Part shown: piece by piece, positions 44,370-55,822 of the stretch
Numbering within the stretch: position 1 is the stretch's first letter
Layout: every line of letters begins with the position of its first letter
Assembly (NCBI RefSeq): GCF_013004105.1
Contig: NZ_CP053085.1
Coordinates: forward strand, 1,488,001 to 1,552,000
Source: Gemmatimonas groenlandica
GTDB taxonomy: Bacteria; Gemmatimonadota; Gemmatimonadetes; Gemmatimonadales; Gemmatimonadaceae
DNA: 64,000 bases
Direction: 5' to 3'
Translations under genes and position numbers: made by a program
Notes under the pieces: generated by a model
Told to the model about the DNA's origin: nothing
Seen by the model: the letters and a program-made list of their open reading frames with translations, nothing else
Database searches by the model: none

Positions 44370-44921
44370 TCAGGCCTCGTCGTCGCGCGCGGCGATCAGC
44401 ACTTCGTCACGTCCGTCAAGTTCCTCGATGAACACGTCGACACGCTGGCCGGGATTCACTTCGACCTTACGGCCGATGACATCGGCATGGATGGGCAACT
44501 CGCGACCGCCGCGATCGATCAGCACGGCGAGGGCGATGCGCGCCGGTCGTCCAAAATCCGCCAGTTCGTCGAGTGCTGCGCGGACGGTGCGTCCGGTATA
44601 GAGCACATCATCGACGATGACGACGTTCTGGTCGTCGAGCGTCCATGGCAGCTGCGTGGTGCCGACGACGGGACGCGGCCCGACCGTTTGCAGGTCGTCG
44701 CGATAGAGCGTGATATCGAGCGCACCGCTGCTGATGTCGACGCCTTCCTGCGCTTTGATGATGCGCACGATGCGCTCGGCGAGTTGCACGCCGCGGCGCT
44801 GGATTCCGACGAGCACCAAGTTTTCGGTACCCGCATTCAATTCGACGATCTGGTCGGCCATGCGACGCAGCGTGCGATCAAGCGCGCGGGCATCGAGGAC
44901 GATGGAAGGCTTTCGAGGCAT
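44370..44921 (-). CDS. pyrR: Bifunctional pyr operon regulator PyrR / uracil phosphoribosyltransferase
   Basis: 183 aa. PRPP-binding loop [20 protein letters not shown] and N-terminal [26 protein letters not shown] are typical. PyrR binds leader mRNA in a UMP-dependent way and attenuates pyr transcription or translation. Here it heads pyrR-pyrB-pyrC. There is no visible Shine-Dalgarno before the ATG; TATATT ends only 6 nt upstream, so the mRNA may be leaderless (see findings). Confidence 0.94.
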
Positions 44922-44967: not shown

Positions 44968-45447
44968 TTACCACTCGTGATGGCTGCGCGGCGGCTGCGC
45001 GCCAGCGGCCGGCCGCTGCGTCCAGAGCCCGGAGAGCGGCGACAAATGTCGGGCGGCGGTGCGAGCGGCACGCAGGCGAGACTTGTCGATATACGGTATC
45101 GTGGACGTCGCGGCATACATCGCGATGTCGGCGGCTGCCTCCATGGTGGCCTGGGCAAATCCGTGTGACCAGTCGGGGCCATACGGGTGCGAGTCGGCGC
45201 GCTCCTCGACACCCATTCCAAAGGCCACGCACTTGTCCGCCGCCTCGCGCAGATTCCGGCTGGACGCCAAATGGGCAACGACAACGTGGAAACCGTCGCG
45301 ACGTCCCATGTGGTACGTCGGCGACTGCAAGGCCTCACCAGCCGGCGGCTCGACAACGCCCGATGCGATTCCCGTAAGCATCACGCACAGCTGCGAGAAG
45401 TAGCCACGGATCGGATCAATCGGCGGCTCTTCGAGAATACGGGACAT
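44968..45447 (-). CDS. Hypothetical protein
   Basis: 159 aa from ATG 45445-45447 (MSRILEEPPIDP). Mostly helical prediction by eye: YFSQLCVMLTGIASGVVEP, HVVVAHLASSRNLREAADKC and FAQATMEAAADIAMYAATS, with scattered His and two Cys. No signal peptide or membrane helix and no family I recognise. A longer in-frame reading to 45618 adds an Arg-rich stretch without conserved look. The stop lies 47 nt upstream of the pyrR ATG. Confidence 0.5.
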   Translation of the reverse strand: MSRILEEPPIDPIRGYFSQLCVMLTGIASGVVEPPAGEALQSPTYHMGRRDGFHVVVAHLASSRNLREAADKCVAFGMGVEERADSHPYGPDWSHGFAQATMEAAADIAMYAATSTIPYIDKSRLRAARTAARHLSPLSGLWTQRPAAGAQPPRSHHEW

Positions 45448-45669
45448 GGCTCTTCCGGCTCGGGTCGTCGCGACGGCCGCCATTCGGCGACTTCGCATAC
45501 GGGTAAGGGGGCAAGTGACGTGCCGAACCTTTTCAAGCCCATATCCGTGCGATTTCCCTCTCATTCCCCTCTGAACCGTCACAGATGGGTTCGCCACACG
45601 TTGCGTAGCTCCCACCATAGGTGAGGCAAGCGCGCTACAGCGGACCCATCCCGGCGACCGGCCTATTCC

Positions 45670-46896
45670 TTAACCGGCATAGAGGTTCAGGTCGGTGCCG
45701 ACGGCGTCGGCCATCGCCATCGTGGTCTCCCAATCGGGATGCCGGATCGTGAGATACCCGTCGGACAGCAGGGTGCTCTTCCAATCGCGCCGCGGAGCGC
45801 CGATCGGCAGGAGATCCACCACGCAGATCGCGTCCCCGAAACGTTGACGGAGCTGCTCGAGCCCTACGATGCGCTGGATGCGGCCCTGCCCGTGCGCCCG
45901 CTTCGTAATGCAGGCGGTGTTGTACTTCCGCTCGATCTTCTGCGAGAAGGTGCCGTGGAGCTCTGCCTCGGCCCACCCGTTGAAGAGATCCATGTCGCCG
46001 GAGTAGTTCATCAGATCGACCGTGCGCGCGCCGGGCGGACGGGCCGCCACTTCGCCGAAAACGGCTTCACCGTCAGCCTTGAGATACCACTCCATGTGGG
46101 TGAAGCCGGTGTCGTAGCCGAGCACCTTGAGCACTTTCTCACCCATGGCGCGACCGCCGGCCAGCTTCGGATCATCGACGTTCCTGTACGTGAGCGTCTG
46201 TGGCGAGATCCACTCGTTGGTCCGGGCGATGAGCGGCCGCGGGCGATAAAAGGCGATATGGAAGTACTTGATGTCGCCGCCCGCGCAGACGGTGTCGTAG
46301 GTGTACTCCTCGCCGTCGATGAACTCCTCGACGTCGACGACGGCGATATGCCCGAGCTGCGCGATGGCTTTTGTCACGTCGGCCGCGTCGTCGCAACGGA
46401 ACGTGTCCATGGAGCCAGCACCGGCGATGGGCTTGATGATGAGCGGATACCCGACCTGCTCGGCTGCGGCCCAGACTTCGGCGGGCGTACTGGCGATCGC
46501 GTGATGCGGCACCCGAACGCCGCCTTCGGCGAGCGCCTGCTTCATGAGATCTTTGTTGCGGAATCGGAGCGACTGTTGATACGACTGCCCCGGCACGCCG
46601 AGGGCTTCCCGGATCTGCGCTGCGATCTCGACCCCTGGCTCCCACAGACAGCAGACGCGATCCACCGTGCGGGAGCCAAGCCAACGGCGGATCTGCTCGA
46701 TGGCGACCGTCGGATTCGTGAAGAGATCGGGCGCTTGCAAATAGTCGCTCAGGTGCTGTCGCGCGATGTGCGGCAGATCCTGCACCGACGTGTTCGAGAC
46801 ACCCAACACGGTGGCGCCCTGCTCGGAGAGGCCACGCGTGAAGAGCGGCATTTCACCGGGGAATCCCGGGGTCAGCATCAACACGGTTTTGGACAC
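45670..46896 (-). CDS. ATP-grasp domain enzyme, downstream copy of a tandem pair
   Basis: 408 aa. N-terminal Rossmann-like preATP-grasp (VLMLTPGFPGEMPLFTRGL, RVCCLWEPGVEIAAQIREAL), ATP-grasp core with SLRFRNKDLMKQALAEGGVR, GYPLIIKPIAGAGSMDTF, VVDVEEFIDGEEYTYDTVC and metal-binding EVAARPPGARTVDLM, then a C-terminal domain (HGQGRIQRIVGLEQL, DGYLTIRHPDWE). Such enzymes ligate a carboxylate to an amine or similar nucleophile through an acyl phosphate. The chosen start is GTG 46894-46896. It follows its paralogue by 28 nt. Substrate unknown; the domain order resembles amino acid or dipeptide ligases of the PF13535 group. Confidence 0.78.
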   Translation of the reverse strand: MSKTVLMLTPGFPGEMPLFTRGLSEQGATVLGVSNTSVQDLPHIARQHLSDYLQAPDLFTNPTVAIEQIRRWLGSRTVDRVCCLWEPGVEIAAQIREALGVPGQSYQQSLRFRNKDLMKQALAEGGVRVPHHAIASTPAEVWAAAEQVGYPLIIKPIAGAGSMDTFRCDDAADVTKAIAQLGHIAVVDVEEFIDGEEYTYDTVCAGGDIKYFHIAFYRPRPLIARTNEWISPQTLTYRNVDDPKLAGGRAMGEKVLKVLGYDTGFTHMEWYLKADGEAVFGEVAARPPGARTVDLMNYSGDMDLFNGWAEAELHGTFSQKIERKYNTACITKRAHGQGRIQRIVGLEQLRQRFGDAICVVDLLPIGAPRRDWKSTLLSDGYLTIRHPDWETTMAMADAVGTDLNLYAG

Positions 46897-46924
46897 AGGT
46901 CGGTTTCGCAGAAGGTGGAGGGGC

Positions 46925-48142
46925 TCAGCCGAGTCGAACGCGAACACTGGAAACGATACGCTGTAACGCGTTCTGCACCACCTTTGTGTCGGGGTGGCGA
47001 ACGATGATGTAGCCTTCGCCCTCGTAGCTTCCGGTAGGATGCTGGCCCGGATACGGCAGACGGGAATCGCAAATGAGCGCGCCGAACTGCTCCTGCACGG
47101 CCTCGAGGCCTTCGACGGTGCGCACCTGGCCCGTGCCCTGCCCTCGCAGATACGCGGTGCCGACGGCGAAGCGCCGCACGGGCGGATCGAAGGTGCCGTT
47201 GATCATGAGACGGACCCAGGCCGCGACGAAATCGATGTCGTGCGCCCGGGAGATCATGGTCGTAATGTTGGCACCGGGGGGACGTGCGGCGATCTCACTG
47301 ATGGCGATGGTGCCGTCGTCGCGGCGAAACCACTCGCAGTGCGACACGCCGGTCCCCATGCCCAGCGCCACCAATGCCTTGGCACCGACCGCGCGGATGT
47401 CATCAAATTCGGCGGCGTCGATCTCGCGCGGCAGCAACACCGTCCACTGGATCCACGAGTTCTCGACGACGTCGAGCGGCGTGGGCCCGTAGCGCGTGAG
47501 TGAATGCCAGATGGCCTCGCCGTTAACTGACACGGTTTCCAGCGAGTACTCGGTCCCGCGCAGGAACTCTTCGGCGAGCATTGGATTGGCTGCCGTCGCA
47601 CGGTAGTTCGCGAGCATCGCGTCGAGCGATGCCACATCACGTATGCGCTGCGTAGCGATCGCCCCAGCGCCGGCGGGAGGCTTGAGGACGATAGGAAATC
47701 CGACCTCGGCGATGAACTCCAACGCGTCTTCGCGAGAGGCGATCAGCCGATGTCGCGCCACCGGCACGCCCGCCGCCCGCAACGCATCCTTCATTCGCGC
47801 CTTGTCGCGAAAGTTGTGCGCGGCCTCGCTGCTGAGCCCCGGAATACCGAGTCGTTCCCGCACGCTGGCCAGCGGCTGCTGGAGCTGCTCGTAGGCCCCA
47901 AAGCAGCGGGCGATCGCGCCGTGCGTGGCACCGAGGGCGCGCACCGCCTGCTCGAGCGACGACGCGTTCGTCACGTCATCGACTTGCCAGTGCGCGGCCA
48001 GTCGCGCGGCGACATTCGGCGTCAGCGCCGTCAGCGGTTGTTGCGCAATGACGCCCAAACGCACGTGCGGCACGTTGAGCGCGGCCTCGATCATCTGAGT
48101 CGCCGCCGGCGAGAAGATTGGACAGACGAAGATGACGAACAT
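46925..48142 (-). CDS. ATP-grasp domain enzyme, upstream copy of a tandem pair
   Basis: 405 aa from ATG 48140-48142 (MFVIFVCPIFSPAATQM). Same architecture as the gene downstream: preATP-grasp (about 1-110), NFRDKARMKDALRAAGVPVA, GFPIVLKPPAGAGAIATQ, LAEEFLRGTEYSLETVSVNG, EIAARPPGANITTMI, and C-terminal GQGTGQVRTVEGLEAVQEQF with EGYIIVRHPD. The two proteins align along their whole length, so they are a tandem duplication that has diverged. Residues around the metal site (AARPPGA) are the same. No Shine-Dalgarno is obvious. No carrier protein, NRPS, transporter or modifying enzyme is beside them. Confidence 0.76.
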   Translation of the reverse strand: MFVIFVCPIFSPAATQMIEAALNVPHVRLGVIAQQPLTALTPNVAARLAAHWQVDDVTNASSLEQAVRALGATHGAIARCFGAYEQLQQPLASVRERLGIPGLSSEAAHNFRDKARMKDALRAAGVPVARHRLIASREDALEFIAEVGFPIVLKPPAGAGAIATQRIRDVASLDAMLANYRATAANPMLAEEFLRGTEYSLETVSVNGEAIWHSLTRYGPTPLDVVENSWIQWTVLLPREIDAAEFDDIRAVGAKALVALGMGTGVSHCEWFRRDDGTIAISEIAARPPGANITTMISRAHDIDFVAAWVRLMINGTFDPPVRRFAVGTAYLRGQGTGQVRTVEGLEAVQEQFGALICDSRLPYPGQHPTGSYEGEGYIIVRHPDTKVVQNALQRIVSSVRVRLG

Positions 48143-48194
48143 GGCGGCGCTCAATTGGGAAAGATCGAGAGTGGATCGAGTACGGATACACAAT

Positions 48195-48223
48195 CGCGGT
48201 GCTGCCCAAAGGGCAACACCGCG
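48195..48223 (-). terminator. Intrinsic terminator after the small exported protein gene
   Basis: 13-bp stem with one G-T wobble (minus strand CGCGGTGTTGCCC, loop TTT, complement), 25 nt after the stop of the gene at 48249. The following ATTGTGT is only weakly T-rich. It separates that gene from the ATP-grasp pair. Confidence 0.65.
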
Positions 48224-48248
48224 ACCGATGCCTACTTCGTGATTCGAC

Positions 48249-48656
48249 TTACTGGCAGACCCAAGCGCCGCCGCGGGCCGTTGCCGTGGCCTTGACACCC
48301 GTCGCCGAATCGGCGGCGGTGAACGTTACCGTTTCATTGGCGCCGTCTTCCTGGCTGCTGGTGGTGCACGGCACCACCTTGCGCACGGTGAAAACGCCCG
48401 TGCTGTCGGCGTCGACCAAACCGAAGTCCTGCGGCTTGCTGGCGCCGGGTGCGCGCGAGGCGGTGAGCTTCACGCGGGCAGCGGCGGGCCAGTTCTTCCC
48501 CTTGAAGTTGATGCGGGCGCCCTGCGGCGACCGCTCGGCTTCGATGGAAATCTGTGGCTTTGCCTGTCCAGTGATCGCGCTGGCCGCCGTTGCGGCGAAC
48601 GAAAGCGCGCTAATTGCCAACGCCGGGCCCAGCATGCGGCGCACGAATGCCTGCAT
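48249..48656 (-). CDS. Small secreted protein of unknown function
   Basis: 135 aa. ATG 48654-48656 has AGGAGG eight bases upstream (GGAGG 48664-48668), one of the best ribosome sites in the window. Signal peptide MLGPALAISALSFAATAASA. The mature part of about 105 residues looks beta-rich and immunoglobulin-like (ISIEAERSPQGARINFKGKN, ARVKLTASRAP, VFTVRKVVPCTTSS, ETVTFTAADSATGVKATATA). Two cysteines (VVPC and the penultimate WVCQ) could form a disulfide. No family recognised. Confidence 0.65.
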   Translation of the reverse strand: MQAFVRRMLGPALAISALSFAATAASAITGQAKPQISIEAERSPQGARINFKGKNWPAAARVKLTASRAPGASKPQDFGLVDADSTGVFTVRKVVPCTTSSQEDGANETVTFTAADSATGVKATATARGGAWVCQ

Positions 48657-48811
48657 CGCACATCCTCCTAGTAAGGTGACGCCATCGGACATATGCCGCG
48701 ACGTGAATATGAAAATGGAGAGCGAGAGGAGAGAACGCAAACTGGTACCCCATCTCCCGCTGACTGCCTCATCACGTTCGTGCGCCCGGTCACAGGCGTA
48801 TCACGGGTCGG

Positions 48812-50368
48812 TTACCGCTCCAGCTTGAAGCCGGGATCGATGGAGGGGCGCTTCGGCGTCGTCGCCACGTACCAGCCCGTGAGGTACATCCACTGCGTCA
48901 TGCGGGTGAGCTTCGGATAGTCGATGGCCGATGGCTTGTCGCGCGGCGTGTGGTAATCGGGATGCAGGTTGGTGGAGTACATGACGGCCGGCACGTTCAT
49001 TCGTGCATACGGCACGTGATCGCTGCGGAAGTACCAGCCTTCAGGATGCGTGGGGCGATCCCAGATCGAATCGAGCTTGAAGGCTCCGGTGAGCGTGTTC
49101 GCCCTCAGCGCCATATCAACAAGTTCTGTTGAGTTGCGGTGTGGCGGCTGGATGCCAAGCAGGCTGGCGGAATCGGGGTTGTTGCGGCCGATCATGTCGC
49201 CGTTCAGCACCGCAACGATGTTCTGCAGGGGCACGACGGGATGCGCGGCATGATAGCGCGAGCCAAGCAGACCAAGTTCTTCCGCACCGTGGTACACGAA
49301 GAGCACCGAGCGCTTGCCTGGCTGCTTCACGAACGCGCGGGCGATGGCGAGCAACGCGACACTGACGGTGCCATTGTCGTCGGCACCAGCCCACACGGAA
49401 TCGCCGTCGATGACATACCGCACGCCGTCGTGGTCCTGGTGTGAGCTGTACAGCACATACTCGTCGCGCAGCTTCGGATCGGTACCGCGCACCACGCCGA
49501 TGATGTTGCTGGACGGTGTGGTGAAGTGCTCGACGCGGACGTGCATCTCGGCCATGGCGCCGGCCTTGAGCGCGGCCGCCGTGGCGCCGCGCACGAGGAA
49601 AGACGGCGTCGGTGCTGTGCGCGCCGACTGCGGACGCGCGGCCTGTGTGGCCTGACCGGCGAAGCGCGGCGCGCCTCCGTCCACGTCATACGTGCCACGC
49701 TCACGAAGTACTCCGAGCCCATCAAACGCGACATCGGTGATCGAGTCGGCCACGAGGATGATCGCAACGGCACCACGGCGTTGTACCCTTTGCGTGGCGG
49801 CCGTGATCGCCGCATTCGCGTAGCGCACTTCGGCGGAGTTCGTGGTGGTGCGAATCGAGGCGGCAGGCGGGGTGGTGATCTGTAGCGCCGCAATCTTGCC
49901 GCGCACATCGATCGTGGTATCGGCGCCCGTGCCTACCCACACCACCGGGGCGCTCACATCGGCGTTGGCGGAGCCCAGCGGCACGAAGTCCTTCCACACG
50001 ACGAGCGGCTTGTCGCCGAGTGCGCCCGTCGTGGACACGGTGGAGACGCGCGTCCGCACCATGTTCCACCACTGGAAGTAGCTGCCGTCCTGTCCCATCG
50101 GCTTCACGCCGATGCTGCGCAGTTGGTCGGCCACCCAAATGGAGGCCCGCATCTCGTCCGGCGTGCCGGCCTCGCGTCCACGCATACCGTCACCGGCCAT
50201 CGCGTACAGATCCCGTTCGAGGTCGGTGCGCTTGATAGCGGACATCGCCAGCGGAACGCCCGCGGTGGCGGTGGATTTGCCCTTGGCGGTGGCTTGCGCC
50301 GACAGCGCCAGCCCTGGGGCCAAGGTCGCAGCGAGGGCCGCGAGCCGCATGATTCGAGGAGAGAACAT
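48812..50368 (-). CDS. Secreted M28-family aminopeptidase
   Basis: 518 aa. Signal peptide (LAALAATLAPGLALSAQA), then an M28 domain interrupted by a PA-like insertion (about 130-280). The co-catalytic zinc ligands and catalytic acids follow M28 order: YSSHQDHDG, GADDNGTVSVALL, FVYHGAEELGLLGSRYH, NGDMIGRNNPD and PDYHTPRDKPS. Cleaves N-terminal residues from peptides, probably in the periplasm. The ATG overlaps the stop of the acylase gene (TGATG), so the two are a coupled operon. Final residues GFKLER suggest the end is complete. Confidence 0.9.
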   Translation of the reverse strand: MFSPRIMRLAALAATLAPGLALSAQATAKGKSTATAGVPLAMSAIKRTDLERDLYAMAGDGMRGREAGTPDEMRASIWVADQLRSIGVKPMGQDGSYFQWWNMVRTRVSTVSTTGALGDKPLVVWKDFVPLGSANADVSAPVVWVGTGADTTIDVRGKIAALQITTPPAASIRTTTNSAEVRYANAAITAATQRVQRRGAVAIILVADSITDVAFDGLGVLRERGTYDVDGGAPRFAGQATQAARPQSARTAPTPSFLVRGATAAALKAGAMAEMHVRVEHFTTPSSNIIGVVRGTDPKLRDEYVLYSSHQDHDGVRYVIDGDSVWAGADDNGTVSVALLAIARAFVKQPGKRSVLFVYHGAEELGLLGSRYHAAHPVVPLQNIVAVLNGDMIGRNNPDSASLLGIQPPHRNSTELVDMALRANTLTGAFKLDSIWDRPTHPEGWYFRSDHVPYARMNVPAVMYSTNLHPDYHTPRDKPSAIDYPKLTRMTQWMYLTGWYVATTPKRPSIDPGFKLER

Positions 50369-52545
50369 CAGGGTTCGGGCCGGTAGGAGCGAAGAGTGTG
50401 CGCGGAAATGTCCGCATCGAGAAAATACACGGGCTTGAGCTGACCGCGGGCAAACATCGCGGCCTGATCACTGTAGTGCGGCGACGTCGAGTCGGCGCTC
50501 TGTCCGTAGGCGAGAACCGAATACGCGCGGGGCGCACGCGCTCCGAACTCCACAGCGAGAATCCAGCCGTCGCCCGAGTTGGCGTTGCGGGAGCCGTCGG
50601 GGCGCTGCTCGTAGGAAAGCACGCGGAAGCAGCCGAGGGCGCCGCTGCAGCCGCCAACGGGTTCGTCCACGGGCCCACGCCGCACGCGGTGCACATCGCC
50701 CCATGCCACGTCGACCGTCTTGTAGCGACGCTGCATGTCGTCGACGGCCCAGCTGAAGGCGTCGACGGCGCGAGCCGGCTGACCGAGGCCGCGCGGCGTG
50801 GAGGTCAGCTTCTCCCACGACCACTTTTCGGCGTAGGCCGAGTCGCGCGCCTGCGACTGATAGCGGCGCCACCAGGTCTCGAAGAGCAATCCTCCGCGAC
50901 TGGTCGGCGCGACGGTGTTGTCCCACTGCTCGAGCACGGCGAGTGCCTGGGCGACCGCCGGCGTGGGTGAGGATTTCTTCAGCGCCGCGACGAGATCGGG
51001 CTTCACGCGGTCGGCGAGCAGCATGCGCATACTGTGCTTTCGCACCAACACGTCTTCGAGCGAGAGTTTGTCTTTGCCGCCGATGAGCTGCAACGCATGC
51101 TGGCTGCGCAGCCGTAGTTCCCCGCGCTCCACGTTGTCGGGATACCGTGCCGTGTCGAGCAGGGCGTTCAGATTGGCAAAATGCGGCGCATCGTTCTCGT
51201 TGTGCACGTAGCCGCCGCGAGGGTTGAGCGTCTGCGGCAACGAATCGAGCGCGATTAATCGCGTCCACACGTCGGCTGATCCGCGCGCGGGAATCGGCAT
51301 CGAGTCCCCGCCCGATCGTGTGGGCAGCCGCGGCACGGTGCCCATCCAAATGGTGAGGATGTTGCCGGCGCGATCGGCGTAGGTGAGGTTGGACGTGGCG
51401 CGGGCGCGGGTGGCGAGCGCCCCCTTCCACTCGACAAGACTGCCCGCGCGCATCATGGCCAGGAACTGCGCCCCGGCGCGATACTCGCCATCGGGGCCAG
51501 CGCGCACGACATAGAGCTTGTTCGAGGTGCGATACACGACCGGGCCCAGTGGTGTGAAGGCCATGCGGCGTGTTTCGCTCACCAGCGAGTCGTCCGTGCT
51601 GCCGATGCGATACGGGAGCGTGATGGACTCGTACCGAATGGGAATGGTGGTGCCGTCGAACCGATAGCGATCCGGATTGGTGGGATCGAGGTCGAGCTCA
51701 TAGACCTCGTCGAGATCCGGCGCGTTGTTGGTGGTGGCCCAGCCAAGATCCTTGTTGAAGCCACCGATGACCGAGAAGGCGCTGCCGATGCGGAAATCGC
51801 CGTAGAAATCGAGCTTTCCCGGCACGGTCACGTGCGCTTCCCAGTAGCCGGCCGTCCAAGCGAGATGTGGATTGCGCAGCAGAATCGCACGCCCGGACTT
51901 CGTGCGGCTCGGGGCGAGCGCCCAGGCGTTCGAGCCAACGTCCGCATCAGCTCCGAACAGGGGAGCCGGGTCGACGTCGAGGGCGCCCGTGTCTCGGATG
52001 GCCGGGCGCGCCGTGCCGCCAGCGCTGCGCTGCAGCCATCGCGTCACGAGGCGCTCGGCAGTGGCCACATTCGCGGTGCCGATGTCCCCAGCGGCGACGT
52101 CGTGCCCGTGGAACACGGGCTTGGCCCACGTGGGCAGTGTCTTCGCATTCGCCCGGATGTAGCGGTTCACGCCTTCGGCGAATCCGTCGTACATGTCACG
52201 CGTGTCGGCGTCGAGCAGGTGATAGGTCTGCTCTACGCGGGCGTGCTCCAGAGCCGCCGAAAAATCGGACGACAGGCTGTCACGCCCAAACGTACGGCCC
52301 ATCCATCCTTTCGAACGGATCAGACTGAGTATGACGCGCACGCCATAATCCTCGGCTTGTGCGTAACCGAGTCCGATACCGATGCCGCGAAAGTCGCTGG
52401 CGCTGATGTGCGGCACGCCGTACGCCGTCCGACGAATGATCGGCTCACCGTCAGACGGAGCAGCGTGACTCGCCGCGCCGAGGGCCGTGGCGGCGATGAG
52501 CACTGGAATCAAGAGGCGCGCGCGGCGCGAGACGTGTGAGAACAT
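50368..52545 (-). CDS. Penicillin acylase-family N-terminal nucleophile hydrolase
   Basis: 725 aa preproenzyme. Signal peptide (RLLIPVLIAATALGAASHAA), alpha chain to about 204, then the autocleavage site DVG-SNAWAL with nucleophile Ser205; beta-chain motifs LLRNPHLAWTAGYWEAHVTV, FYGDFRIGSAFSVIGGFNKD and LGWATTNNAPD. The family deacylates penicillins, aculeacin or N-acyl homoserine lactones. The C-terminal part has WGDVHRVRRG and GDGWILAVEFG, as in acyl-homoserine-lactone/aculeacin acylase relatives. Substrate not predictable. The ATG at 52545 is chosen since in-frame residues upstream lack a signal peptide pattern. Divergent from susC (178 bp apart). Confidence 0.87.
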   Translation of the reverse strand: MFSHVSRRARLLIPVLIAATALGAASHAAPSDGEPIIRRTAYGVPHISASDFRGIGIGLGYAQAEDYGVRVILSLIRSKGWMGRTFGRDSLSSDFSAALEHARVEQTYHLLDADTRDMYDGFAEGVNRYIRANAKTLPTWAKPVFHGHDVAAGDIGTANVATAERLVTRWLQRSAGGTARPAIRDTGALDVDPAPLFGADADVGSNAWALAPSRTKSGRAILLRNPHLAWTAGYWEAHVTVPGKLDFYGDFRIGSAFSVIGGFNKDLGWATTNNAPDLDEVYELDLDPTNPDRYRFDGTTIPIRYESITLPYRIGSTDDSLVSETRRMAFTPLGPVVYRTSNKLYVVRAGPDGEYRAGAQFLAMMRAGSLVEWKGALATRARATSNLTYADRAGNILTIWMGTVPRLPTRSGGDSMPIPARGSADVWTRLIALDSLPQTLNPRGGYVHNENDAPHFANLNALLDTARYPDNVERGELRLRSQHALQLIGGKDKLSLEDVLVRKHSMRMLLADRVKPDLVAALKKSSPTPAVAQALAVLEQWDNTVAPTSRGGLLFETWWRRYQSQARDSAYAEKWSWEKLTSTPRGLGQPARAVDAFSWAVDDMQRRYKTVDVAWGDVHRVRRGPVDEPVGGCSGALGCFRVLSYEQRPDGSRNANSGDGWILAVEFGARAPRAYSVLAYGQSADSTSPHYSDQAAMFARGQLKPVYFLDADISAHTLRSYRPEP

Positions 52546-52628
52546 CTGGCAATGCTGCGGCGTCACACGGCCGTCCGCAACCACAGGTACTGAGAGAATC
52601 ACGAACGTCGCGCACCGCGGCAGCGCTA

Positions 52629-52656
52629 TTGCGGGGGCCGCGTGGGAGGATAGCTT
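52629..52656 (+). promoter_or_regulatory. Weak candidate promoter for susC-susD
   Basis: TTGCGG (52629-52634), 16-nt spacer, TAGCTT (52651-52656), 67 nt before the susC ATG, inside the 178-bp divergent region between acylase and susC. Only a consensus match; other sigma factors may be used. Confidence 0.3.
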
Positions 52657-52723
52657 CGCGCAGCCTACTTGCCTAACCAAAGTGGGCGCTACGCCTTCCC
52701 GCGTTTACCCCAAGGAGTTCTTC

Positions 52724-55700
52724 ATGAGTCAGCGAAGTTTGCTCAGTGCGCTGGCCTTCGTCGCCACAGCGCTGATGGCCCCCGTTGTCCAGGCGCAGCA
52801 AGCGTCGACGGGGACCGTGTCGGGCCGCGTGACGGATGCATCGACCGGACAGCCCGTCGGCGCCGCCCAGATTCAGGTGGTGGGCACGACGCTCGGCGCC
52901 CAGACCAACCAAGACGGCATCTATTCCATCCGGGCGGTGCCGGCGGGAGCGGTGCGACTTCGCGTGCTCCGCCTCGGATACTCCGAGCTGAATCAGGCCA
53001 CAACGGTATCGGCCTCGCAGGTCACGACCGTGAACCTGCAGCTGAAGTCCGTGCCGGCCACCCTGAATCCCGTTGTCACCACGGCGACCGGCCAGCAGCG
53101 CCGCAACGAAGTCGGCAATTCCATCGCCCAGGTGAATGCAGCGGAAGTGGTTGAGACGCGCGGTGTGGCCAACATGGCCGACCTGCTCACGGCGCGGGCG
53201 CCGGGCGTGCTGGTGACGCCGGGTACGCAAACGGGTGCCGGTGTGCGCGTGCGTATTCGCGGCACGAGTTCGGTGGCGTTGTCGAACAATCCGATCTACG
53301 TGATCGACGGCATTCGCATCGACGGATCGACCGGTTCGTCGACGCTCAGCGTGGGCGGCACGACGCCGAGCCGCGTGGGCGATTTGAATCCGGAAGAGAT
53401 CGAGTCGATCGAAGTGGTGCGTGGTCCGTCAGCGTCGACGCTGTACGGCACCGATGCGGCGAACGGCGTCATCGTCATCAAGACCAAGCGCGGCGTGGCC
53501 GGCAAGCCGCAGTGGACGTACTACACCGAACAGACGGCACTCACCGACCGCAACGCCTATCCCACGGCGTATCGGGCATGGCGCAGCGGCACCACAGCGG
53601 CGACCACCTCGACGCGCTCGAATGCCGTGCAGTGCTTCCTCACGCAGAAGGCGGCCGGCTCCTGCGCCATCGACAGCGTGAGCAGCTTCAATCTGCATGA
53701 CGACGCGGAGACGACGCCGTACGGCGTGGGCTATCGTCAGCAGCACGGCCTGCAGGTGAAGGGCGGCTCGGAAACCGTGCGCTACTTCCTGCACGGTGAG
53801 TGGGAAGACGAGGACGGCGTGACCAAGCTCACCGAGTTCGATGCGCGGAAGTTGGCGGCGGCCGGTACGCCGTTGAGTGCGATCCAGATGAGCCCCAATC
53901 ATCTGAACAAGATCACGACGCGCGCGAATCTCAATATCGCGTTGTCGCCGAAGGCTGACGTGACGGTCAGTGCGGGCTACACCAATCAGGACCTGCGCCT
54001 GCCGCAGAGCGACGACTCCGGTACGTCGGGCATTGCCGCCAACGTGTACGGCGGCCCCGGTTTCAAGTACAACCTGACAGCCACCGGTGATACGCTGTTC
54101 GGTTGGCGCCAGTTCACGACGCGCGACATCTATCAGTCGGAGTCGGTGCAGAACATCAATCGCATGATTTCGTCGATCGGATCGAATTACCGCCCGACGG
54201 ATTGGCTGGCGGTGCGCGGCAACTTCGGCCTCGACTACGTGAACCGGGTCGACACGCAGCTGTGCCGGTTCCAGAACTGCCCAGACATCGGCACCGATCG
54301 CCTCGGCTACAAGCGCGACAACCGTACGAACTTCTACACGTACACGGTGGACGCCGGCGCGACGGCTACGAAGTCGCTCACGAACGCGATCGAGTCGAAG
54401 ACGACCGTCGGCGTGCAGATGTACCAGAGCATCTTCGACCGCAACGGCGCCACGGGCCTTGTGTTGCCGCCCGGCGCCACGACGGTGACGGCCGGCGCGA
54501 CGGCGCAAGCCGACGAGTCGTACAGCGAGAGCCGCACGCTGGGCGCCTTCGTGGAGCAGAACGTCGGCTTCAACGACCGCCTGTTCCTGACGGCCGCGCT
54601 GCGGTCGGATCGCAACAGCGCGTTCGGTGCGAACTTCAAGACGGTGTTCTATCCGAAGATCGCCGCGTCGTGGGTGCTGTCGCAGGAGTCGTTCTTCCCG
54701 AAGCCGCAGTGGCTCGATCAGCTGCGCTTGCGTTCGGCCTACGGTGCGTCGGGCGTGCAGCCCGGCACGATCGACGCCGTTCAGTACTACTCGGCCACGG
54801 CGGGGCGTCAGGAGAGTGGCGACGTCCCTGCCCTCGTGTACTCGACGCTCGGCAACAAGAATCTGCGTCCGGAGCGCTCGACCGAAACGGAAATCGGGCT
54901 GGACGGCACGTACTGGAACGGCCGCGTCAACACCGAGATCACGTACTACAACAAGCTGTCGAAGGATGCGCTGGTGAGCAAAGTGCTGCCGCCGTCGCTC
55001 GGCACCGGCGCCACCGCACGCCTCGAGAACCTGGGCTCGGTGCGTAATCGCGGTTACGAAGCGCTGATCTCGGCGCAGCTGATTCAGAAGCAGGCCTTCG
55101 GCCTCGATGTCACGCTGAACGGTGCGTACAACGACAACGAGTTGATCAGCCTTGGTGGCCAGCCGACCATCGGCACCACGCAGCAACAGCGCCAGGGCTA
55201 TCCGCTGTATGGCTGGTGGTCGCGTCAGCTCACCGGCTTCGACGACAAGAACGGCAACGGCATCATCGAGTACAACGCGAGCAACGCGCTGAGCGAGATC
55301 ACGGTGACGGACACGTCGGTGTTCATCGGCTACTCCATGCCGAAGACGGAAATGGGCTTCACCACCGGCATCGACTTGTTCAACAAGGCGCTGCGCGTGA
55401 CCGCACTGCTCGACTACAAGGGCGGTCACAAGATCTACAACAACACGGAACGCATTCGCTGCGCGAGCCGACTGAACTGCTCGGGGCTGCTGAATACGGC
55501 CGCTTCGCTCGAGGAGCAGGCGCGCGTGGTGATGGTGCGGGAGCATCCCAGCCGCTCAGTGGCCGGCTTCTTCGAAGACGGCGACTACCTACGCTTTCGC
55601 GAGCTATCGGCGACCTATCAGGTGCCGGCACGCGTGGCCACGCGACTATTCCGTGGCCGTAGTCTGAGCGCCACGGCATCGGTGCGTAACCTCGGCATCC

Positions 55701-55822
55701 TCTGGACCAAGTACACGGGCGTCGATCCGGAAGCGTTCGGCACCACGGGCGATGCGCCGTCGGAGTTCCAGGCCTTCGGCCCGCCGACGTACTTCGCGTT
55801 CCGCTTCACTTTCGGCTTCTGA
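52724..55822 (+). CDS. SusC/RagA-type TonB-linked outer membrane receptor
   Basis: 1032 aa. Signal peptide (LLSALAFVATALMAPVVQAQ), CarboxypepD_reg-like domain (about 28-110; GTVSGRVTDASTGQPVGAAQ, YSIRAVPAGAVRLRVLRLGY), plug domain (about 135-250; NMADLLTARAPGVLV, NNPIYVIDGIRI, ESIEVVRGPSASTLYGTDAA, NGVIVIKTKRG), then a 22-strand beta barrel closing with aromatic FAFRFTFGF. Imports large ligands with a SusD partner using TonB energy. ATG 52724 has AAGGAG at 6 nt. susD follows after 14 nt. Ligand unknown; no glycoside hydrolase is adjacent, but an acylase and a peptidase lie divergently. Confidence 0.95.
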   Translation: MSQRSLLSALAFVATALMAPVVQAQQASTGTVSGRVTDASTGQPVGAAQIQVVGTTLGAQTNQDGIYSIRAVPAGAVRLRVLRLGYSELNQATTVSASQVTTVNLQLKSVPATLNPVVTTATGQQRRNEVGNSIAQVNAAEVVETRGVANMADLLTARAPGVLVTPGTQTGAGVRVRIRGTSSVALSNNPIYVIDGIRIDGSTGSSTLSVGGTTPSRVGDLNPEEIESIEVVRGPSASTLYGTDAANGVIVIKTKRGVAGKPQWTYYTEQTALTDRNAYPTAYRAWRSGTTAATTSTRSNAVQCFLTQKAAGSCAIDSVSSFNLHDDAETTPYGVGYRQQHGLQVKGGSETVRYFLHGEWEDEDGVTKLTEFDARKLAAAGTPLSAIQMSPNHLNKITTRANLNIALSPKADVTVSAGYTNQDLRLPQSDDSGTSGIAANVYGGPGFKYNLTATGDTLFGWRQFTTRDIYQSESVQNINRMISSIGSNYRPTDWLAVRGNFGLDYVNRVDTQLCRFQNCPDIGTDRLGYKRDNRTNFYTYTVDAGATATKSLTNAIESKTTVGVQMYQSIFDRNGATGLVLPPGATTVTAGATAQADESYSESRTLGAFVEQNVGFNDRLFLTAALRSDRNSAFGANFKTVFYPKIAASWVLSQESFFPKPQWLDQLRLRSAYGASGVQPGTIDAVQYYSATAGRQESGDVPALVYSTLGNKNLRPERSTETEIGLDGTYWNGRVNTEITYYNKLSKDALVSKVLPPSLGTGATARLENLGSVRNRGYEALISAQLIQKQAFGLDVTLNGAYNDNELISLGGQPTIGTTQQQRQGYPLYGWWSRQLTGFDDKNGNGIIEYNASNALSEITVTDTSVFIGYSMPKTEMGFTTGIDLFNKALRVTALLDYKGGHKIYNNTERIRCASRLNCSGLLNTAASLEEQARVVMVREHPSRSVAGFFEDGDYLRFRELSATYQVPARVATRLFRGRSLSATASVRNLGILWTKYTGVDPEAFGTTGDAPSEFQAFGPPTYFAFRFTFGF

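Follow-up and report, generated by a model that had tools for sequence, protein, structure and literature searches.

Paralogous ATP-grasp genes resembling amino acid ligases in Gemmatimonas groenlandica, and an apparently undescribed glycogen-linked multi-ligase gene set in its relatives

Closest described ligases

Among described proteins, the pair considered here comes closest to the L-amino acid ligases RizA (4wd3), BL00235 (3vot), and BacD/YwfE (3vmm, 3wnz). The two proteins, here called A and B, likewise have a three-domain ATP-grasp fold (TM 0.75–0.81 by query), and they share with these ligases the ATP and metal residues, the ExxxR motif, and a glutamate in the substrate loop; they differ in being an ancient paralogue pair, in having a glycogen context rather than an antibiotic cluster, and in the replacement of Trp332 of BacD. 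Loci in which several mutually unrelated peptide ligases lie together with hydrolases, as in the gene set described below, were reportedly predicted in 2009 by Iyer, Aravind and colleagues, whose amidoligase neighbourhoods are said to include GCS2/YbdK proteins, circularly permuted ATP-grasp proteins, and peptidases. A precedent for two-step assembly by two ligases of this kind is provided by PnaC and PnaB of phosphonoalamide biosynthesis (PMC11867202). We liken these to A and B by the two-ligase arrangement, and the A/B set differs in that it contains no phosphonate genes and is conserved across phyla, whereas PnaC and PnaB belong to a sporadic gene cluster.

Two intact and diverged ligase genes

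The window (the whole stretch of 64,000 nucleotides that was analysed, positions 1,488,001 to 1,552,000 of contig NZ_CP053085.1) had been described in a first-pass annotation as containing two head-to-tail ATP-grasp genes of about 405 codons separated by 28 nt, and both are present as complete open reading frames, with A upstream of B:

46925..48142, minus strand: gene A, ATP-grasp ligase, 405 aa, ATG start, first of the pair, complete ORF
45670..46896, minus strand: gene B, paralogous ATP-grasp ligase, 408 aa, GTG start, downstream of A, complete ORF
46897..46924, minus strand: intergenic gap between A and B, 28 nt

Both starts are consistent with those of relatives (MFVIFVCPIFSP for A and GTG-VSKTVLMLTPGF for B), and the tandem A-B order is kept across the Gemmatimonadaceae with gaps of 19–201 nt. 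Membership in the ATP-grasp superfamily is indicated by Foldseek, which matched hundreds of solved ATP-grasp proteins, and by the Pfam cut-offs, which A passes with PF02222 (38.4 bits, cut-off 27; 1.3e-9) and with PF13535 (28.9 bits, cut-off 27), the type of family suggested on first reading, and which B passes with PF18130, ATPgrasp_N (28.6 bits, cut-off 27) and PF02655 (27.9 bits, cut-off 23.2). Full-length AlphaFold2 models, for which 54 orthologues of A and 48 of B were supplied, are confident (pLDDT 94.2 and 93.7 respectively), and the sole weak part of the A model is residues 158–161, the glycine-rich ATP loop.

A and B share 33% identity across a 351-residue alignment (E 4e-58), and the AARPPGA core noted in the first-pass annotation is common to both as E-x-AARPPGA. 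In A, residues E85, K114, K154, E191, E192, H268, E270, E283, and R287 are invariant in the 54 orthologues; in B, E86, K115, K155, E190, E191, H267, E269, E282, and R286 are invariant in the 48. These sets cover what we take, by homology with other ATP-grasp enzymes, to be the ATP-binding lysines, the hinge glutamates, the metal-binding glutamates, and the ExxxR motif, and there is thus no sign that one copy is dead in all relatives. Comparison with five close relatives gives dN/dS values of 0.06–0.14 for A and 0.03–0.07 for B, and both genes are under strong purifying selection. The pair occurs in 46 of the 148 genomes of the family, which together with these dN/dS values (0.03–0.14) argues that it is not a chance arrangement. 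B stands by itself in one further genome, a MAG (G127) in which the gene f8 abuts B (L097, G127:C6, 1700-2260) and A has been deleted or was lost in assembly; distant A-like proteins are found in a few other genomes of the family.

Orthologues of both genes are also present in further families of the phylum, in Myxococcota, and in a planctomycete MAG. In a tree of 125 proteins (in which one sequence, from L056, is wrongly labelled M and belongs to Gemmatimonas), A and B form separate clades with support of 0.94 and 0.98, each with members from Myxococcota, Planctomycetota, and Gemmatimonadota, and a third paralogue, C, forms a third separate clade; all three span more than one phylum, so either the split is ancient or the set has moved as a unit. 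No third ATP-grasp match of this kind was found in the window's genome at E 1e-60. It could be argued from the common fold, the common core motif, and the tandem genes that A and B are redundant copies of a single ligase, with only slight differences in specificity between them. We regard this as highly improbable, because the two ancient clades are each kept in every sampled phylum, A and B are retained together in 46 of 47 genomes, and the invariant residues of the likely substrate loops differ (W230, Q232, and W233 in A; W229 and P232 in B), in agreement with the initial impression that the substrate-binding regions are different. A and B are probably two active, distinct enzymes.

Relationship to the amino acid ligases

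Foldseek ranks RizA (4wd3), BL00235 (3vot), and BacD (3wo1) as the nearest solved folds of A, and BL00235 (3vot), RizA (4wd3), and BacD as those of B; a PDB sequence-profile search agrees, with RizA, BL00235, and BacD, all L-amino acid ligases, best for both. PurK, PurT, and biotin carboxylase, which have similar ATP-grasp folds and other products, also match, and because no characterised ligase is more than about 15–20% identical to them, the substrate class of A and B is assigned at the level of the fold. Some correspondences in the pocket can nonetheless be read from the alignments. Pro85 of BL00235 controls substrate specificity (PMC6920838); E85 of A and E86-P87 of B align with the Glu-Pro of BL00235, so that B keeps the full dipeptide. 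The position of the size-limiting Trp332 of BacD is an Ala in both A and B of the window, which we infer would leave space for an amino acid larger than Ala.

None of the curated family models independent of Pfam, those of NCBIfam included, reached its cut-off with A or B. The model for BacD itself (AAntcapLigBacD, NF053745) gives 49.9 bits with A and 21.5 with B against a cut-off of 850, and that for dapdiamide DdaF (NF041595) gives 27.4 and 35.1 bits against 840. The best NCBIfam matches are PRK02186 and PRK07206 (111.5 and 68.6 bits for A; 59.0 and 66.6 bits for B), far under the respective cut-offs of 625 and 302 bits. PRK02186 describes a fusion of an ATP-grasp domain with argininosuccinate lyase; A was considered as such a fusion and rejected, as its match is confined to residues 67–324 with no lyase domain, and B has none either. 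The possibility that both proteins are orthologues of a ligase of known substrate is accordingly not borne out, as the curated families with a known substrate all fall below cut-off. From fold and residues, there is good support for the view that A and B work like amino acid ligases; there is no such support for placing them in a named LAL family.

A recurring gene set in relatives

Partners were sought by clustering the open reading frames around 69 loci and annotating them with Pfam, NCBIfam, and PDB profiles. Recurring with A and B is a glycogen part, composed of a DUF3417 glucan phosphorylase, GlgA, a GH57 branching enzyme, and a GH57-DUF3536 protein, and a second group of CE1 esterases (f17 and f5), a RimK/Ddl-like ATP-grasp protein (f1), a glutathionylspermidine-synthase-like protein (f27), a YbdK carboxylate-amine ligase (f13), and a C26 gamma-glutamyl-hydrolase-like protein (f18). 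The set is seen in other Gemmatimonadota, in Myxococcota, among them the cultured Nannocystis pusilla (L049), and in a planctomycete MAG. At locus L093, for example, the order is GH57 branching enzyme-A-B-CE1b-CE1a-f1-f27 with successive gaps of −4, 41, 3, −1, 6, and 2 nt, and five other loci (L077, L081, L082, L094, and L121) are similar, so that several genera have contiguous genes on the same strand whose ends overlap or nearly touch. Other families of the phylum (L138–L141) also have a contiguous set. In these other Gemmatimonadota families a block of C, an S51-like peptidase, the f19 esterase, f1, and CE1 lies near or divergent to A-B or A, and parts of this arrangement recur in Myxococcota and Planctomycetota; GlgA or GlgP is frequently in the vicinity. 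In L138–L140, paralogue C with the S51-like peptidase, f19, f1, and CE1 adjoins A-B. The genes f1, f27, YbdK, and C26 also form a module of their own (L103:5906-10579; L105, L106, and L111–L118).

The first-pass annotation had regarded the pair, with no recognisable partners, as the window's best candidate for an undescribed small biosynthetic module. That no partner is adjacent holds locally, within the genus; in relatives, and elsewhere in the same genome, conserved partners exist, and the set is larger than two genes. What stands of the module is a pair of intact and diverged ligases, predicted to be active, of which no description was found. Literature on ATP-grasp proteins in combination with glycogen synthase, esterase, YbdK, cyanophycinase, or Gemmatimonas yielded no description of the set, and an earlier prediction in the 2009 survey is possible. 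From homology and gene context, A and B appear to be ligases of the LAL type that belong, with the other ligases, to a conserved and apparently undescribed multi-ligase set linked to glycogen. Such a set, tied to glycogen metabolism in three phyla, would mean an overlooked peptide-like metabolite or modification associated with a common storage pathway, and it would also offer new amide-forming enzymes.

The variety of ligases raises the question of whether A and B modify a protein, by a RimK-like addition of amino acids comparable to peptide-tagging systems that have been predicted around GCS2 and circularly permuted ATP-grasp proteins. The RimK/Ddl-like f1, the glutathionylspermidine-synthase-like f27, and the YbdK ligase f13 would suit such a role; however, the best matches of A and B are free amino-acid ligases and not RimK, and the cluster contains no conserved candidate for a tag or target protein, and we consider this very unlikely.

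The set in the window's own genome

In the genome from which the window is taken the set is scattered over three places, these being the A-B pair in the window, a ligase block beside glycogen genes at 1.81–1.82 Mb, and an esterase at 3.90 Mb (genome coordinates):

1,808,739-1,814,195: GlgP-GlgA-GH57 run
1,818,405-1,821,775: f27, C26, and YbdK genes
1,821,906-1,823,078: f1
3,898,656-3,899,417: CE1a esterase (f5a)

Some 6 kb separate the f1/f27/C26/YbdK block from GlgA. A search of this genome for the S51-like protein, made without a positive control, gave no match. This bears on a simpler view, that A and B make plain dipeptides as a nitrogen reserve or osmolyte, that the glycogen link reflects shared regulation in starvation, and that the S51-like peptidase and C26 hydrolase break the product down for reuse. 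The LAL-like fold of A and B is in keeping with it, as are the presence of an S51-like peptidase and a C26 gamma-glutamyl hydrolase in the cluster and the fact that the neighbours concern a reserve polymer. Besides the missing S51-like protein, the four to six different ligases exceed what such a product would need, and we think this explanation rather unlikely.

Despite the scattering, members of the set tend to occur in the same genomes. Orthologues of f5a (64–100% identity) are present in 37 of the 148 family genomes, all of which have A/B. Counting both genes present, A only, the other gene only, and neither, the 148 genomes divide as 37, 10, 0, and 101 for f5a (Fisher p 5e-26), as 45, 2, 21, and 80 for f1 (p 3e-19), and as 45, 2, 31, and 70 for GlgA (p 5e-15), these tests ignoring phylogeny. 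The flanks of f5a are not conserved between genera and contain no additional conserved partner, so linkage does not explain why f5a tracks A/B; we note also that f5a groups with the CE1 gene directly preceding A in Myxococcota, apart from the f17-linked CE1 type. In one genus (g5), f1, f5a, and GlgA are confined to its three A/B genomes, and as most of these genes are linked there, the pattern may go back to one event of gain or loss. Nor do the genes always come together, for there are ten A/B genomes without f5a, 21 genomes with f1 and no A, and G127 with B and no A. In the 21 family genomes with f1 and no A/B, f1 is usually accompanied by a pair of CE1 esterases (f17 and f5b).

The PADLOC models of anti-phage defence systems gave no match for A, B, CE1a, f1, f27, C, or the S51-like protein; a search of phage families gave a single marginal match, without known function.

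A proposed pathway

We favour, at somewhat better than an even chance, the reading that A and B are consecutive amide-forming ligases of a conserved, glycogen-linked pathway to a short peptide-like metabolite, acting together with f1 and f5a. Each would use ATP to convert a carboxylate, probably from an amino acid or short peptide acid, into an acyl phosphate, and attack by an amine on this intermediate would then yield an amide, ADP, and Pi. Amide formation is suggested by the fold and residues of A and B, and a shared pathway by gene context and co-occurrence. We infer consecutive steps within one pathway, like those of PnaC and PnaB, as well as their order. The RimK-like f1 would also serve the pathway, as would further ligases in many genomes, and f5a, a CE1-type alpha/beta hydrolase predicted to be cytosolic because its sequence has no evident signal peptide, would probably hydrolyse or transfer the product or an intermediate. 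The pathway would be expressed with or beside glycogen synthesis; in relatives its genes share one operon with glgA, the GH57 branching enzyme, and the DUF3417 phosphorylase.

The operon with glgA, the GH57 branching enzyme, GH57-DUF3536, and the DUF3417 phosphorylase, and the several CE1-type esterases within it, invite a different explanation, in which the ligases, via acyl phosphates, put amino-acid or peptide groups on the alpha-glucan as esters or amides and the CE1 esterases take these groups off or shift them, so that the glycogen is decorated. The N-terminal region of f19 in Myxococcota and Planctomycetota, which resembles the enterochelin-esterase N domain, would fit this, and f5a would be in the cytosol alongside glycogen. 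Against it, we know of no ATP-grasp enzyme acting on glycogen, pockets of the RizA/BacD type accept free amino acids, the esterases could equally use a small ester or thioester, and f5a has no glucan-binding domain; we find this quite unlikely. A broader proposal, in which two or three LAL paralogues with the RimK-like, glutathionylspermidine-synthase-like, and YbdK ligases assemble a peptide-like group, either bound to glycogen or co-regulated with it, and the CE1 esterases take this group off, seems to us unlikely too; if true, it would mean that a storage glucan is modified with peptidyl groups, or that a new metabolite controls glycogen.

Surroundings of the pair in the window

The first-pass annotation placed a terminator upstream of the pair, and a terminator-like structure does lie between f8 and A:

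48193..48225, minus strand: hairpin with a strong 15-bp terminator-like stem and a weak U-tract (few U in the tail), from folding
48249-48740, minus strand: f8, 163 aa, no Pfam match, apparent signal peptide; conserved immediately before A in the genus and its close relatives
44968-45618, minus strand: f6, conserved, family unassigned, about 160–230 aa by ORF; in most of the genus it separates B from pyrR-pyrB-pyrC
44370-44921, minus strand: PyrR-like regulator heading the pyrR-pyrB-pyrC run, here outside Firmicutes

A consensus terminator scan called none between f8 and A, its sole minus-strand terminator-like site being inside f8 (48607-48623). A promoter scan around the pair gave no promoter-like site, and an RNA family search there gave no match, including no known leader near pyrR. 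The genes f8, f6, and pyrR/pyrB/pyrC were considered as partners and set aside, as they are conserved neighbours only in the genus and close genera and not in other lineages. Beyond f8 are M28 peptidase and penicillin-amidase (PvdQ-like) genes (48812-52680, minus strand), and divergent to these a large TonB-receptor-like open reading frame (52487-55822), all apparently unrelated to A-B.
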